64,000 nt of DNA from Salinirubellus salinus (GCF_025231485.1 NZ_CP104003.1:1426001-1490000), one strand, 5' to 3'. Counted from the stretch's first letter, positions 38,841 through 45,315 are shown. Numbers and translations are program-made. Notes: generated by a model from the sequence alone, not told the origin.

Positions 38841-39443
38841 TCACCACTCCGCGTCGGCGTACTCGCGGACCCGCGCGTACGCCTCCCGCTCGGCCGGCCC
38901 ACCGGCCCGGGCGACCACCGACTCGAGCCACCGCAACCGCTCGAGCAACGCCGTCCGGTCGTAGCCGGGCACGTCCAGACGCGACACCGCGACGGTGGCC
39001 TCCACGACGGCGCCGTACCCACGGTTGAACGTCGGCACCGTCCGCTCGCGCACGACCGACTCGGTCGGTGCGAGCGCCCAGTCGACCCACTGGGTGTCGC
39101 CCTCCTCACCCGAGCGGTGTTCCGTCACGTCGACGCGGACCCACGCGGCCGCCTCGTCGATGACCGGGTCGTCCTGCTCCCGGACCGAGAGCGCGGCGTC
39201 CACGAACGTCCGCGGGTCGGCCACGAACTGGACGACGCCCTCGCCACGCTCGTCGAAGTTCCGCCACGTCCGGGTCCGGCCCCACGTCCGTGCGGTGACG
39301 CGGTCCCCACCCACCTCGTCGAGTGCCGGCGCCCGCAAGCCGAGGGCCGCGAGGTTCCAGCGCTCGTTCGGCCCGAGCGTCGTCACGACGCTCTCGGTGA
39401 CGCCACGGAGTCGCACGGCGTCGGGCCACCCCTCGGCGCCCAT
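38841..39443 (-). CDS. DUF447 family protein (predicted FMN-binding split barrel)
   Basis: A 200-residue protein of DUF447 (COG2457-like). TESVVTTLGPNERWNLAALGLR opens the split-barrel fold and the ARTWGRTRTWRNF and GVVQFVADPRTFVDAAL stretches are family marks; the C-terminal half is a helical extension. Members are, as I recall, the Orf19-type proteins of methylotroph methanopterin gene clusters and are frequent in methanogens. It starts one base after the CitG-like gene stop, so it is translated with it. Its reaction is unknown. Confidence 0.8.
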   Translation of the reverse strand: MGAEGWPDAVRLRGVTESVVTTLGPNERWNLAALGLRAPALDEVGGDRVTARTWGRTRTWRNFDERGEGVVQFVADPRTFVDAALSVREQDDPVIDEAAAWVRVDVTEHRSGEEGDTQWVDWALAPTESVVRERTVPTFNRGYGAVVEATVAVSRLDVPGYDRTALLERLRWLESVVARAGGPAEREAYARVREYADAEW

Positions 39444-39444
39444 C

Positions 39445-40302
39445 TCAGACCTCCAGCCCCCGCTCGAGGGCGACGAACAGCGCCCCCGCGGTCAGGTCGG
39501 CCGTCGTCCCGGGGTTGATGCCGCGCTCGACGAACTCGTCGGCCAGCGCCTCCGCCTCTTCTTCGCCGTCGAGGGCGGCGCGTGCCCGCCTCGTCGCCTC
39601 CGTCGCGCGCGCCTCGTCGGCCGTCTTCGCGACGAAGGTGTCCACCTCGTCGACCAGCAGTCGGAGGAAGACGCGTGCGGCGCGGTCGGGAGCCGACCCC
39701 TCGTCGGCCAGGAGCCACTCGGCGGCCTCGAAGGTGCGTTCGAACCCGCGCACCCACTCGGCAGCGACGCCGTCCACCTCGGCGGAGAGTGCCATCACGT
39801 CCGCCAGTGTCAGGCCGCGCTCGCGGAGCGCCCGCTCGGCCGCGCCCCCGCGGCGCACGTCCAGAGCATCCAGCCCCTCCGGCGGGTCCCCGACGGCGAC
39901 GTCGACGTGTTCGAACGCGCGGTAGAACGCGACGGCGTCGTCGACGGTCGTGTCGGCGACGACGTGCTCGACGGCCTCGGTGGTCAGGGCGCGGCCATCG
40001 CTCCCAGCCCGGACGAGCGGGACGAGGAGGAGGAGCGCCCCGAACTGCGTGTTCCCGCCGCGCTGGTGGGACATCCCCTCGACGGCGCGCTCGAACGCCT
40101 CACCGACGGCGTGGTCGTGGTCGGCGGCGAGCGCGAGGCCCCGGCGTGCCCCCACCGCGCCCGCGAGGAAGTGCTCGAAGCGCAGGTCGTCGTGGTCCCG
40201 GTGCCGGTCGACGTTGCCCGGCTTGGGCGTGCCGGCCACCTCCAGCAACAGGGCGAGTTCGGCGTTCTCGACGGACGTTCGGGGTGAGTCGCGACCGGTC
40301 AC
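39445..40302 (-). CDS. Triphosphoribosyl-dephospho-CoA synthase-like protein (CitG family)
   Basis: A 285-residue helical protein of the CitG/MdcB family. VAGTPKPGNVDRHRDHDDLRF, SHQRGGNTQFGALLLLVPLV and the C-terminal RGINPGTTADLTAGALF are its signatures. True CitG makes the prosthetic-group precursor of citrate lyase, but no lyase or acyl-carrier partner is near. GTG 40302 overlaps the upstream stop (GTGA). Together with cofD, the Dus-like gene and DUF447 it suggests a coenzyme-type nucleotide transfer in a C1/F420-linked pathway, which is inference. Confidence 0.8.
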   Translation of the reverse strand: MTGRDSPRTSVENAELALLLEVAGTPKPGNVDRHRDHDDLRFEHFLAGAVGARRGLALAADHDHAVGEAFERAVEGMSHQRGGNTQFGALLLLVPLVRAGSDGRALTTEAVEHVVADTTVDDAVAFYRAFEHVDVAVGDPPEGLDALDVRRGGAAERALRERGLTLADVMALSAEVDGVAAEWVRGFERTFEAAEWLLADEGSAPDRAARVFLRLLVDEVDTFVAKTADEARATEATRRARAALDGEEEAEALADEFVERGINPGTTADLTAGALFVALERGLEV

Positions 40303-41048
40303 GCCGTCACCTCGCGGTCGGCGAACCACGCGTCGACGGCCTCGCGGACCCGGCGCAGGACGACGGGGTCGTCGCTCGGGCGGCCCACACTCACCGCGTC
40401 GGCGCCGTACTCGAGATACTCGGTCGCCGTCGCGCGGTCACGGACACCGTTGTTCGCGACGAGGAAGCAGTCACACGCCTCGCGCACCTCGCGAACGACG
40501 GGTTCGGAGTCCATCGCGTCGACGTGGAGCCAGTCCGCCCCCGCGGTTTCGAGCGCGGCCGCGAGGGCGGGGAGGTCGACCCCCTCGACCTCGGTCCGGA
40601 CCTTCACGCTCGTCGTGGCGAACTCGCTGGCCGCGGCGACCTGGTCGCACAGCCGGTCGGTGTCGCGCAGGAGCGTCTCGCCGGCGCCCGCCTCGCGCAT
40701 CTCCGCCTGCCGGCAGTGGGCGTTCACCTCGAGGACGGCGTCGTGGCCGGCGCAGACCCGCGCCACCTGTCGGAGCGGCCCGAGCGTCGTCGTCCGGACG
40801 TTGACGGAGGGCCGGACCTCGAGGTCCGCGACGGCGTCGAGTTGCGCGCCGACGAACGCGACGGGGTCGTCGGGCAGGAACTCGGAGCGGTCCCGGTCGA
40901 CGAGCCGGCGGGCCGCCTCCCGGGTCGGCCCGTCGAGTGAGACGCCTCCGAGGAACGCACAGCCGACGTACGGGGCGGCCCGCCGGGCCCACGCGGCGTC
41001 GGCTGCCCCCGAGAGCGACGCGACGGCCACGCGGGGGGTGAACGTCAC
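40299..41048 (-). CDS. Dus/NifR3-like FMN-binding TIM-barrel protein
   Basis: A 249-residue protein of the dihydrouridine synthase superfamily but lacking the C-terminal tRNA-binding helical domain (true Dus is above 300 residues). The Dus-type Cys is kept in [21 protein letters not shown], Lys in [12 protein letters not shown], and His in [10 protein letters not shown]; the phosphate-binding [11 protein letters not shown] lies at the end. Similar 250-residue NifR3-like domains are, as I recall, fused to some methanogenesis marker 9 proteins. GTG 41048 overlaps the cofD stop. A tRNA role is doubtful. Confidence 0.72.
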
Positions 41049-42052
41049 GCGACGACCTCCAGCGCGTCCTTCACCGCGAGGGCGACCCGTTCGGCGTCGT
41101 GGTCCTCGTCGAGCGAGGTGTCCGTGTGGATGACGGGTCGGTCGAGTTCGGTGTCGTCCTCCGTATCGAGGACGAACGCGTCGGCGAACGGGTAGGCCTC
41201 CGCGACGCCCGCGGTGGAGGCCTCGTAGCCCATCGCCGCCATCAGGGTCGCCGCCGGCCCCGAGTAGAGTTCGTCGCCCACGAACGGGGAGACGGCGACG
41301 ACGGGCGTTTCGTGCAGCGCGCGCTCGAACTCCTCCATCGCGACCATCGGCCCGATGCTCGTGATGGGGTTCGACGGCCCGACCACGACGGGTTCGGTGA
41401 GCGCAGTCAGCACCCCGTCGGTCGGTTCGGCGGCCTCGGCCCCCCGGAACTCGACCCGGTCGACCGGTGGCTCGGCCCGGTGGCCCACCCACCACTCCTG
41501 GAAGTGCTGGAACGGCTGGCGGCCCGGCCCGCCGTCGACGTGGACGAGCGAGGCGACCGGGTCGTCGCTCATCGGCAACAGCGTCCGCTCGACGTCGTAG
41601 GCGGCCGCGAGGATATCCGTCACCTCGGTCAGGGTGCGGCCCTCGTCGAGCAGCGAGGTGCGGGTGAGGTGCAGCGCCCGGTCGCGGTCGCCGATGAGCA
41701 TGAACTCCGCGACGGCCGAGAACCGGCGCCAGTTCGCCAGCGGTCGACCCTCGGTCTGCAGGCGCTCGGGGAGGTAGCCCGGTCGGCCGTCGAGGCCGGC
41801 CTTCGTCGCGAGCCGCTCGAGTTCGCGGTGGGTCTCGTCGGTGTCGCCAGCGATGCCCCACCACCGGTCCCGTTCGAGCATCTCCGCGTCGAGGAACAGC
41901 ACCGTGTCGATGTCCGGGCAGACGAGGTGGCCCCCGAGCACCACGTCGTCGCCGGTGTTCCCGATCACGGTGGTCTCGGCCGGGGGGAACACCGCGTCCG
42001 CGCCGGCCAGCAGTTTGGGCGTCCCCGTCCCACCGGCGAGGAACGTCGTCAT
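41045..42052 (-). CDS. cofD: 2-phospho-L-lactate transferase (F420 biosynthesis)
   Basis: A 335-residue enzyme joining the phospholactate (or phosphoenolpyruvate) moiety to Fo in coenzyme F420 synthesis. [18 protein letters not shown] and [22 protein letters not shown] are the hallmark motifs, and [15 protein letters not shown] covers the product loop. It is the first gene of the tightly overlapped cluster cofD/Dus-like/CitG-like/DUF447. A divergent HD-hydrolase gene starts 124 bp away. Confidence 0.95.
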
Positions 42053-42176: not shown

Positions 42177-43394
42177 ATGAACACCATCAAGGACAGCGTC
42201 CACGACCACATCGCCGTCCGTGGCGTGGCCGAGGAACTCCTCGACACGCCGCCCGTCCAGCGCTTGCGACACATCAAGCAACTCGGGACGGTCGGGATGG
42301 TCTACCCCTCCGCCAACCACACCCGCTTCGAGCACTCGCTCGGGGTCTACCACCTCGCCGAGGAGGCGCTCGGCCACCTCGGTGTCGAGGGACGGAACGC
42401 CGACCGGGTCCGCGCCGCCGCCCTCCTCCACGACGTGGGGCACGCCCCGTTCTCGCACAACACCGAACACCTCGTCGAGCGGCGGACCGGCAAGATGCAC
42501 GACGAGGTCCACGACCTCATCGAGCGCGGCGAGGTGGCGCGCGTCCTCGAACTCCACGACCTGAACCCCCGGAAGGTCGCCGACCTCGTCGCCGGGAAGG
42601 GCCGGTTCGGCCAGCTGGTCTCCGGTGAACTCGACGTCGACCGGATGGACTACCTCGTCCGCGACGCCCACCACACCGGCGTCCCGTACGGGACCATCGA
42701 CCACGGCCGACTCGTCCGCCAGTTGCGGTTCGTCGAGGACTCGCTCGTGCTCGCGGAGGGGAACGTCCAGAGCGCGGAGTCGCTCCTGCTGGCCCGCGCC
42801 CTGATGAACCCGACCGTCTACAACCACCACGTCGCGCGCATCTCGAAGGCGATGCTCCGGCGCGGGTCCGAACGACTGCTCGATGCGAGTGTCGTCGACG
42901 CCGAGACGTTCCGTCGGTGGGACGACCACGACCTGCTCGTCGCGCTGCGGACCCACGAGGAGAGTGCCGAGTTCGCGGACCGACTCGACCGGCGCGACCT
43001 GTTCAAGCGTGCCGTCTGGGCCGAGTACGACGACGTCGACGACGACCTCATCGACGCCGACCACGAGCGCGTCCTCGAGTACGAGGCCGACATCGCCGAG
43101 GCGGTGGGCATCGACCCGGAATCGGTGGTCATCGACGTCCAGCCGCGACCGAGCATGAAGGAGTCCACCTCGCGGGTCGTCGTCAACGGGGAGGTCCGCC
43201 GACTGGGCACGCAGTCGGGACTCGTCGACGCGCTCCGACAGGCCCAGACCGAGCAGTGGCGACTCGGCGTCTACGCACCCGCGGCCCACACCGACGCCGT
43301 GGGGGCGGCCGCCGAGTCCGTCCTCGGCCTCGACCTCGATGCCCTCGTCGTCGAGGTCCGCAAGGGGATGAACCGCTCGCTCGACCAGTTCTGA
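42177..43394 (+). CDS. HD domain phosphohydrolase (SAMHD1/dNTPase-like)
   Basis: A 405-residue metal-dependent HD hydrolase. The H...HD...D set is in TRFEHSLGVYHLAEEAL, AALLHDVGHAPFSH and ELDVDRMDYLVRDAHHTGV. Relatives act as dNTP triphosphohydrolases or broader nucleotide phosphatases. A TATA-like ggcttatct near 42145-42152 stands about 28 bp before the ATG, so the transcript is probably leaderless. The C-terminal third (about 280-405) has no motif I can name. Confidence 0.88.
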   Translation: MNTIKDSVHDHIAVRGVAEELLDTPPVQRLRHIKQLGTVGMVYPSANHTRFEHSLGVYHLAEEALGHLGVEGRNADRVRAAALLHDVGHAPFSHNTEHLVERRTGKMHDEVHDLIERGEVARVLELHDLNPRKVADLVAGKGRFGQLVSGELDVDRMDYLVRDAHHTGVPYGTIDHGRLVRQLRFVEDSLVLAEGNVQSAESLLLARALMNPTVYNHHVARISKAMLRRGSERLLDASVVDAETFRRWDDHDLLVALRTHEESAEFADRLDRRDLFKRAVWAEYDDVDDDLIDADHERVLEYEADIAEAVGIDPESVVIDVQPRPSMKESTSRVVVNGEVRRLGTQSGLVDALRQAQTEQWRLGVYAPAAHTDAVGAAAESVLGLDLDALVVEVRKGMNRSLDQF

Positions 43395-43507
43395 CGTGTG
43401 GACGCACGTCCGTCCAGATACACCTTGAGGGTGTCGTTCGGACAGTTCTCCGCGGCACCCTCGAACGTTCAAATCCCCTAACCCACCTTAGTCACCCTAG
43501 ACGCCCA

Positions 43508-43519
43508 ATTTTTTAATAC
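43508..43519 (+). promoter_or_regulatory. TATA element of the 44-residue gene
   Basis: attttttaatac, an AT-rich block rare in this GC-rich window, centred about 29 bp before ATG 43543, the spacing of a leaderless archaeal promoter. Confidence 0.6.
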
Positions 43520-43542
43520 ATCACACGACATTCGTAGATAGA

Positions 43543-43677
43543 ATGAGTTCGAGGTCGTTCGGTCGGCGGATGACGTGCCGAGTCGTTGGACACGAGTGGA
43601 AGATCGAGAAGTTCAGGGTCACGCACGGGCAGGTCGTGTGTACCCGGTGTGACCACGCGGAGTGGCGGCGGAACTGA
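43543..43677 (+). CDS. 44-residue zinc-finger-like protein
   Basis: A short basic protein (MSSRSFGRRMTCRVVGHEWK... ending RCDHAEWRRN). C12, H17, C33 and C36 (TCRVVGH, then VCTRCDH) could bind one zinc ion. A TATA element stands 29 bp upstream. Length, basic charge and a CxxC end resemble the very small zinc-finger proteins of haloarchaea. The function is unknown. Confidence 0.6.
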   Translation: MSSRSFGRRMTCRVVGHEWKIEKFRVTHGQVVCTRCDHAEWRRN

Positions 43678-43741
43678 GTCGCAGGGGACAGACGGCGGTG
43701 CGGTTCCACGGATTTAACAGCACACCGCGCGGACGGAGCGT

Positions 43742-44776
43742 ATGATCCTGGAGGGGACCGTGCTCGCCGGTCCGGGGTACGACCCCGTCGAGGGGCGCGT
43801 CGTCGTCGAGGACGGACACGTCGAGTCCGTCGAGGAGACGGAGACCGACTCCACGGACATCGTCCTGCCGGCGTTCGTCAACGCCCACACGCACGTCGGG
43901 GACTCCATCGCCAAGGAGGCCGGCGGGGGCCTGTCGCTGGAGGAGCTGGTCGCGCCGCCGGACGGCCTGAAACACCGACTGCTGGCCGAGGCGAGTCGCG
44001 AGGAGATGGTCGAGGCCATCCGCCGGTCGCTCCGGTTCATGGAGCGTGCCGGGACCGCGGCGTTCCTCGACTTCCGCGAGAACGACGTCGAGGGCGTCGA
44101 GATACTCCGCGAGGCCGTCAGCGGGCGGGCCATCGAACCGAGGATATTCGCCCGCGGGTCGCCCGAGGCGATGGAGGCCGGCGACGGCTTCGGCGCCAGC
44201 GGCGCGAAAGACGCCGACTTCAGCATCGAGCGCAACGCCACCCGCCGGGCCGGCAAGCCGTTCGCCATCCACGCCGGCGAGGCCGACTCGGCGGACGTGA
44301 ACCCGGCGCTCGACCTCGACCCGGACTTCCTCGTCCACATGGTCCACACCGAGCCACTCCACCTCGAACGCCTCGAGGAGCGGGGCACACCCGTCGTTGT
44401 CTGTCCACGCTCGAACCTCGTCACCGGTGTCGGGGTGCCGAACGTGCGCGAGCTACTCGACACGACGACGGTGGCGCTGGGGACGGACAACGTCTTCCTC
44501 AACGCACCGTCGATGTTCCGCGAGATGGAGTTCACCGCGAAGCTCTGCGACGTGAGCGCTACCGAGGTGCTCCGGATGGCGACGCGGGCGGGTGCCGAGT
44601 TCGCGGACCTGAACTGCGGGACCGTCGAGGCGGGCCGCGAGGCCCGACTGATCGTCCTCGATGGCGACTCGGACAACCTCGCCGGCGCGCAGGACGTGGT
44701 CCGGGCCGTCGTCCGCCGGGCGGGCGTCGCGGACGTGAAGTCGGTGTTGCTGGAGCGACCCGACCCCACGGCGTGA
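43742..44776 (+). CDS. Amidohydrolase family protein (chlorohydrolase/deaminase-like)
   Basis: A 344-residue cytoplasmic metal hydrolase of the ATZ/TRZ-type amidohydrolase group. VLPAFVNAHTHVGDS gives the HxH pair, FAIHAGEADS the third His, HMVHTEPLHLE the fourth, and ALGTDNVFLNAPS the catalytic Asp. Family members deaminate or dechlorinate ring nitrogen compounds; the substrate is unknown. It is preceded by a TATA-like ggatttaac at about 43712-43720, about 25 bp before the ATG. Confidence 0.85.
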   Translation: MILEGTVLAGPGYDPVEGRVVVEDGHVESVEETETDSTDIVLPAFVNAHTHVGDSIAKEAGGGLSLEELVAPPDGLKHRLLAEASREEMVEAIRRSLRFMERAGTAAFLDFRENDVEGVEILREAVSGRAIEPRIFARGSPEAMEAGDGFGASGAKDADFSIERNATRRAGKPFAIHAGEADSADVNPALDLDPDFLVHMVHTEPLHLERLEERGTPVVVCPRSNLVTGVGVPNVRELLDTTTVALGTDNVFLNAPSMFREMEFTAKLCDVSATEVLRMATRAGAEFADLNCGTVEAGREARLIVLDGDSDNLAGAQDVVRAVVRRAGVADVKSVLLERPDPTA

Positions 44777-44826
44777 GGGTCGCCAGGGGGCAAACGTTCA
44801 TAGCGGGTCGCGTGTCACTGTCTCGC

Positions 44827-45315
44827 ATGTACGACCGTATCCTCGTGCCCACCGACGGGTCGCCGGGGATGGACAGCGTCGTCGCTCACGCCGCCTCGCT
44901 GGCCGAGGTGCACGGCGCGACGCTCGACTTCGTCTACGTCGTCAACACGGCGGCGTTCGCCAACCTCCCGATGGAGACGTCGTGGGAGGGCCTGAGCGAG
45001 ACGCTCCGTGACGAGGGGGAAGCCGCTCTGGACGCCGCCGCGGAGGCGGCCGGCGACGTGCCACACGAACGCCACCTGCTCGAGGGCGGTCCCTCGCGAG
45101 AGATAACGGCCTACGCGAACCGGTCGGGTGCCGACCTCGTCGTGATGGGGACCCACGGTCGCGGGGGCATCGACCGTATCCTGCTGGGGAGCGTCGCCGA
45201 GCGCGTCGTCCGGTCCTCGTCGGTCCCGGTCCTCACCGTGCGCGTCGGAGAGCCGCCGGCCGACGCGGACGTGGACGCCGATCGGGCGGCCGAGCCGCCG
45301 ACGGACGAGGAGTAG
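44827..45315 (+). CDS. Universal stress protein (ATP-binding type)
   Basis: A 162-residue UspA protein. YDRILVPTDGSPGMDSVVAHA opens the fold and the complete nucleotide motif GTHGRGGIDRILLGSVAERVV keeps GxxG-9x-GS, so ATP binding is expected. The tail is a 25-residue acidic extension. ATG 44827 is used; the frame extends to 44773 inside the leader. It follows the amidohydrolase gene by 50 bp. Confidence 0.92.
   Translation: MYDRILVPTDGSPGMDSVVAHAASLAEVHGATLDFVYVVNTAAFANLPMETSWEGLSETLRDEGEAALDAAAEAAGDVPHERHLLEGGPSREITAYANRSGADLVVMGTHGRGGIDRILLGSVAERVVRSSSVPVLTVRVGEPPADADVDADRAAEPPTDEE

Follow-up and report, generated by a model that had tools for sequence, protein, structure and literature searches.

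The closest described relatives of the genes considered here serve the biosynthesis of tetrahydromethanopterin (H4MPT) in methanogens and methylotrophs, with MptG, proteins of the Orf19 and Orf20 type (which we take to be DUF447 and CitG-like proteins) and DmrX/AfpA. To build the side chain of H4MPT, a reduction has to yield 1-deoxyribitol, and this must receive an alpha-linked ribose phosphate; bacterial dephospho-H4MPT shares both features, and we know of no enzyme assigned to either step. Here, we analyzed a 64,000-nucleotide stretch of DNA from the haloarchaeon Salinirubellus salinus (NZ_CP104003.1:1426001-1490000; the window), in which an operon at positions 38,841 to 42,052 encodes CofD, a Dus-like protein, a CitG-like protein and a DUF447 flavoprotein. 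The haloarchaeal genes share with the described pathway the gene families, the archaeal adjacency of CitG-like and DUF447 genes, and an MptG with conserved phosphoribosyl pyrophosphate (PRPP) residues. Unlike methanogens and methylotrophs, haloarchaea lack the TIGR00284 family of proteins resembling dihydropteroate synthase (DHPS) and are held to make folate; furthermore, their genes are linked to cofD, mer or metE, whereas the methylotroph counterparts are linked to a catabolic one-carbon (C1) island.

In Methylosinus trichosporium, orf19, orf20 and afpA follow in this order among methanopterin genes (PMC3615186), and homologues of MptG use PRPP and an aromatic acid to form a C-riboside phosphate (PMC6787355, PMC8183095). 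The haloarchaeal reductase Mer is curated as a folate enzyme (PMC8305020, PMC4500146), an assignment made because haloarchaea are believed to be without methanopterin, while F420 occurs in haloarchaea with no established physiological role (PMC8498797). A literature search, mostly outside subscription papers, found no paper that proposes a methanopterin-type carrier in haloarchaea. The reading that we favor, namely that haloarchaea probably run an H4MPT-type C1 carrier pathway beside folate, which includes the CitG-like and DUF447 proteins and is used by Mer and split MetE, is at odds with the published assignment of haloarchaeal Mer to folate.

CitG-like and DUF447 genes accompany methanopterin genes

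We found DUF447 in 140 and CitG in 141 of 148 genomes of a phylum sample that included 24 haloarchaea. The two genes were adjacent on one strand, with citG first, in all 21 haloarchaea that have both, and adjacent also in most methanogens of the sample. A DUF447 search with a narrower alignment gave matches only from methanogen and ANME (anaerobic methanotrophic archaea) relatives. Among 80 methanogen/ANME loci with named source records, the CitG-like gene stood directly before DUF447 in 55, a Dus-like protein preceded the CitG-like protein in 37, and a dihydromethanopterin reductase followed DUF447 in 21, its identity in the locus of Methanosarcina sp. 2.H.T.1A.6 being given by TIGR02700 at 405 bits. 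Using tblastn with DUF447 from the window, we obtained plasmid copies in the betaproteobacteria Cupriavidus oxalaticus and Paraburkholderia sp. PGU19. Both plasmid islands carry, in one run, mptG, an mtdB-like gene (named from its N-terminal sequence), mch, a gene for an MptN-like ligase, citG-like, genes for an AfpA-like flavoprotein and a DHPS-like protein (TIGR00284), DUF447 and a gene for a 4-HFC-P-synthase-like protein (mfnB). Sulfolobus, among the control genomes of the profile searches, has MptG, CitG-like and DUF447 as well. Given the methanogen neighbours and the bacterial islands with mptG, mch and mtdB, the CitG-like and DUF447 proteins very likely belong to H4MPT-type synthesis. 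The methanopterin link that a first-pass annotation had drawn from methylotrophs is thus borne out, both by methylotroph-type C1 islands in bacteria and by the dihydromethanopterin reductase alongside in methanogens.

MptG and Mer follow the same pattern outside the window

MptG, a member of the RFAP synthase family (G000:C1:1852565-1853506 in the genome of the window), was present in 21 of the 24 haloarchaea of the phylum sample, and the three without it (G008, G060 and G119) were exactly those without CitG and DUF447. In a larger sample of 214 haloarchaeal genomes, of which the best 176 are at least 90% complete, MptG and DUF447 were each found in 172 of these 176; the same three genomes made up the shared absences, while the other two absences (G210, G289) were in fragmented assemblies. 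Both genes were also missing from G309 (72% complete), from the genus of G008 and G060. Since G119 groups at 100% support with G028, which has the genes, we count two independent losses, and the naive hypergeometric value of 1.8e-5 for MptG and DUF447 is no proof, as it reflects two events only.

Mer (G000:C1:3329574-3330524 in the genome of the window) was near universal among haloarchaea and missing from G008, G060, G119 and G309, with G119 giving paralogue-level matches only (1e-38) and G176 having Mer as two match pieces. Among the 176 genomes, moreover, G119 alone has no MetE catalytic domain at an E value of 1e-20. In a control with 17 families shared by haloarchaeal loci, G060 had none of the four pathway families, and of the remaining 13 the examined 77% of its genome contained 11; this is close to the expectation under full retention, and the loss therefore appears specific. 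The loss genomes retain cofD and the Dus-like gene; where citG and DUF447 would follow, G060 and G008 have asd, and G119 has a deoxyhypusine-synthase-like gene and then asd. Such a gene also separates the operon from asd in some members of family f2 (loci L144 and L148) and is near the mer operon in G155 (L256). We considered Mch as the consumer of the carrier and rejected it: Mch is present in G008, G060, G119 and G309, and it is absent from f26 and f31, small haloarchaeal lineages of metagenome-assembled genomes (MAGs) that keep MptG, DUF447 and Mer.

Physical linkage joins the same genes. In G155, five genes in one direction (mer, DUF447, mptG, metE1 and metE2) overlap or almost touch at their ends; G166 has overlapping mer, DUF447 and mptG; and a run of mer, citG-like, DUF447 and mptG occurs in G299 and twice in G253, where metE diverges alongside. 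Clusters of this mer type were found in two separate families, f2 and f33, and a 4.2-kb stretch of G018 holds mptG, cofE and mer. This link to MptG and Mer was invisible to the first-pass annotation because both genes are outside the window. As side observations, the G253 cluster with metE occurs twice, on two contigs (L252, L255), and the operons of G166 and G155 (L254, L256; f33) have no citG between their genes, these genomes being incomplete.

The Mer proteins of the operon copies scored 397 to 431 bits with NF002619 (cut-off 276) and in this resemble the known F420-dependent methylene-H4MPT reductase. They differ from that enzyme in that Mer stays below the TIGR03555 cut-off in all haloarchaea and is curated as methylene-tetrahydrofolate reductase. 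Profiles also confirmed the catalytic part of MetE (PRK04326, 498 bits), the MetE N-terminal-like protein, CitG, DUF447 and the RFAP synthase family in these clusters. In the split MetE, neighbouring genes encode the Meth_synt_1 and Meth_synt_2 domains, the same layout as described for halophilic and thermophilic archaea (PMC7857596); compared to that description, the operon found here points to a methanopterin-type donor.

Haloarchaeal MptG keeps the residues expected of a PRPP-using enzyme. At positions mapped from the crystal structure of ForT, the equivalents of the PRPP ligands R19, H99, S104, T106, R135 and S139 were conserved in 36 to 37 of 37 haloarchaeal sequences, and the arginine of the p-aminobenzoate (pABA) site, R26 of the Methanothermobacter RFAP synthase, was conserved in 36 of the 37. 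The RFAP synthase equivalog NF040726 (cut-off 328 bits) was reached neither by haloarchaeal MptG (136 to 166 bits) nor by the bacterial protein (150 bits), and most haloarchaeal sequences exceed only the TIGR00144 subfamily cut-off; curators judged RFAP synthase activity unlikely for the MptG homologue HVO_2628 (PMC8305020, PMC4500146). By eye, the neighbours of MptG in most haloarchaea are KaiC-like and zinc-ribbon-like genes.

A proposed carrier pathway

The window CitG-like protein belongs to PF01874, the family of the CitG/MdcB triphosphoribosyl-dephospho-CoA synthases, and differs from these enzymes in its motifs. Against the CitG/MdcB equivalogs, CitG-like proteins scored only 19 to 31 bits (26 to 31 for the window protein; cut-offs 272 to 282). 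The motifs KPGN, NT-x-G and NPG[TS][TS]AD are common to haloarchaea, methanogens and the bacterial islands, while E. coli CitG reads KPGL, NTHKG and SPGGSAD at the same places. No citrate or malonate lyase gene was seen near the CitG-like gene, in agreement with the first-pass annotation, which had noted no citrate lyase partner there. The annotation had also suggested modelling DUF447 for a flavin mononucleotide (FMN) site, and the structure model (predicted local distance difference test, pLDDT, 86) has the fold of FMN-bound homologues: it matches MM1853 with its FMN, MTH_863, and a protein from Archaeoglobus that carries riboflavin phosphate. A flavoprotein and a member of a family that makes ribosyl linkages from ATP fit the two side-chain steps; the presence of both features in bacterial dephospho-H4MPT would explain why just MptG, DUF447 and CitG-like are common to bacteria, methanogens, Sulfolobus and haloarchaea. 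We predict, at about even probability, that the CitG-like protein is the ribosyl-phosphate transferase of an H4MPT-type side chain, and more tentatively that DUF447 carries out its FMN-dependent reductive step.

Starting from the observed gene linkage, co-loss and active-site conservation, we infer the product, the CitG-like and DUF447 reactions, and the use by MetE as follows. MptG would join PRPP to an aromatic acid to yield a C-riboside phosphate, whose riboside moiety DUF447 with FMN would reduce, in the simplest form by opening the furanose to deoxyribitol. The CitG-like protein, by the chemistry of its family, would add an alpha-linked ribosyl phosphate to the ribitol. The finished tetrahydropterin would carry a methylene group, which Mer may reduce to methyl with F420H2, and split MetE may transfer this methyl from the pterin to homocysteine to form methionine. 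The presence of cofD in the operon could reflect the consumption of F420H2 by Mer, as CofD supplies F420, while the Dus-like protein would be a neighbour with another role. Use of the pathway product through Mer is likely in haloarchaea. For the full proposal we lean only slightly in favor: a probably simplified methanopterin-type pterin, perhaps assembled by a canonical FolP, that coexists with folate and whose sole purpose is methyl transfer from F420-dependent Mer to split MetE, with DUF447 and CitG-like filling gaps in every H4MPT pathway, as a reductase and a ribosyltransferase, respectively.

If this is true, the C1 chemistry of a whole archaeal class is misannotated, Mer and Mch having been assigned to folate in the belief that the carrier is absent. 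F420 would gain a role in haloarchaea, candidates would be named for the two H4MPT side-chain steps, and the pterin used by split MetE would be explained. The literature on hdrB mutants is uninformative on this question, as these mutants were grown with casamino acids.

Weighing the alternatives

Several points weigh against the carrier pathway. The proposed haloarchaeal pterin is deduced from genes rather than from chemistry, and work from 1988, as cited in PMC8305020 and PMC4500146, reported folates and no methanopterin in haloarchaea. The TIGR00284 DHPS-like family, which we considered as the pterin-joining enzyme and rejected, is absent from haloarchaea, with weak matches only, to proteins of about 800 to 1000 residues that are probably fused FolP; the joining step would thus need a canonical FolP. 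At the position of D19 in RFAP synthase, 36 of the 37 haloarchaeal MptG sequences have N, although the characterized enzyme remained partly active as D19N (PMC6787355). The phylogenetic profile is carried by two independent losses only, and the other loss genus (g4), without Mer, yet keeps one lower-scoring protein of the MetE family.

Some of these points would also suit an explanation in which MptG, CitG-like and DUF447 survive as vestiges from a methanogen ancestor and tetrahydrofolate now serves Mer, Mch and MetE, in line with current curation: the cited folate measurements and the probable FolP fusions agree with it, and H4MPT biosynthesis genes and haloarchaeal Mch have been called remnants (PMC9635834). 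We consider this unlikely, because vestiges should decay independently, yet MptG and DUF447 are each retained in 172 of 176 genomes and disappear together with Mer from the same two lineages, the active-site residues of MptG are kept, and operons unite the genes with mer and metE. A Mer that works on folate would have no reason to be lost together with MptG. A less remote possibility, still somewhat doubtful, is that the trio makes the tail of a hybrid pterin used by Mer and MetE, like the modified folate of Sulfolobus, with a ribitol and another terminus. Sulfolobus has all three genes, its modified folate with an aminophenyl-tetrahydroxypentane was described by Zhou and White in 1992 (as cited in PMC3261824), and the absence of TIGR00284 from haloarchaea leaves room for a tail other than the one in H4MPT. 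No result contradicts this version, which is a variant of the methanopterin-type proposal that differs in the terminal group only, so that our estimates for the two overlap.

Far less probable is the idea of the first-pass annotation that all four proteins jointly produce a single new coenzyme linked to F420 or a pterin, or couple a phosphoribosyl-type cofactor to an acceptor. The overlapping junctions and the recurrent four-gene order speak for it, but cofD and the Dus-like gene persist without CitG and DUF447 in G008, G060 and G119, G018 keeps the rest without a Dus-like gene, and no Dus-like gene lies between citG-like and DUF447 in the bacterial plasmid islands. The single undescribed pathway is accordingly not supported; a phosphoribosyl-type chemistry of the CitG-like protein is plausible. 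We conclude that the operon is two modules. Least probable of all is that the CitG-like protein is an ordinary triphosphoribosyl-dephospho-CoA synthase and the Dus-like protein an ordinary tRNA dihydrouridine synthase: both have the Pfam membership that this would require, but the first is far below the CitG/MdcB cut-offs and unlike E. coli CitG in its motifs, and the second is far below those of DusB and DusC (14 bits, with cut-offs of 293 and 395).

The operon in the window and the Dus-like protein

All four genes lie on the minus strand and are free of internal stops, with families assigned by Pfam and NCBIfam profiles. cofD (42052-41045, ATG start), for 2-phospho-L-lactate transferase, exceeds the TIGR01819 cut-off at 355.7 bits. 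It is followed by the gene for the Dus-like protein (41048-40299, GTG start), an MJ0144-like FMN-type TIM barrel without the Dus RNA-binding domain, by citG-like (40302-39445, GTG start; PF01874, 220.5 bits), and by the DUF447 flavoprotein gene (39443-38841, ATG start; PF04289 and PF20766, DUF447_N/C, 82.6 and 53.3 bits). The close coupling noted at first pass is evident at the junctions, of which cofD/Dus-like and Dus-like/citG-like are 4-base GTGA overlaps and citG-like/DUF447 is a 1-base gap. A gene-order comparison, which that annotation had recommended, recovered the order cofD-dus-citG-DUF447 in haloarchaea of several families, the citG-like/DUF447 pair also in methanogens, and both genes in bacterial C1 islands. 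This recurrent order is more than chance. The genome of the window (G000, haloarchaeal, 4.38 Mb) has one CitG homologue only.

The Dus-like protein (249 residues) scored 28.6 bits with PF01207, above the Pfam cut-off, and 116.5 bits with its nearest NCBIfam profile, TIGR00736, below the cut-off of 218.7. As first described, it has the Cys (AHCRQ), Lys (SVKVR) and His (LHVD) of the catalytic barrel and is without the tRNA-binding domain: the structure model (pLDDT 89.6) matches Dus and DHODH folds and ends at the barrel helix, with no C-terminal RNA-binding helical domain. We rejected the protein as a companion of the trio of MptG, CitG-like and DUF447. It is retained in G008, G060 and G119, which have lost the carrier genes, and absent from G018, which has CitG-like and DUF447; its role is therefore separate. 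A NifR3-like domain on methanogenesis marker 9 proteins had been named at first pass, and we found such a fusion to the marker 9 domain (TIGR03277) in Methanosarcina sp. 2.H.T.1A.6. In Methanothrix and relatives (L190, L191, L197, L200, L215, L231), the Cys-bearing stretch of the Dus-like part is deleted and the marker 9 part remains, which speaks against a conserved dihydrouridine function.

Downstream of DUF447, rps17e follows after 81 bp in the window and is near DUF447 in other haloarchaea too. On the other side, in a conserved neighbourhood at 42177-45315 and in homologous loci of several haloarchaea, HD-domain-like, amidohydrolase-like and universal-stress-protein-like genes (named by eye) are divergent from cofD.

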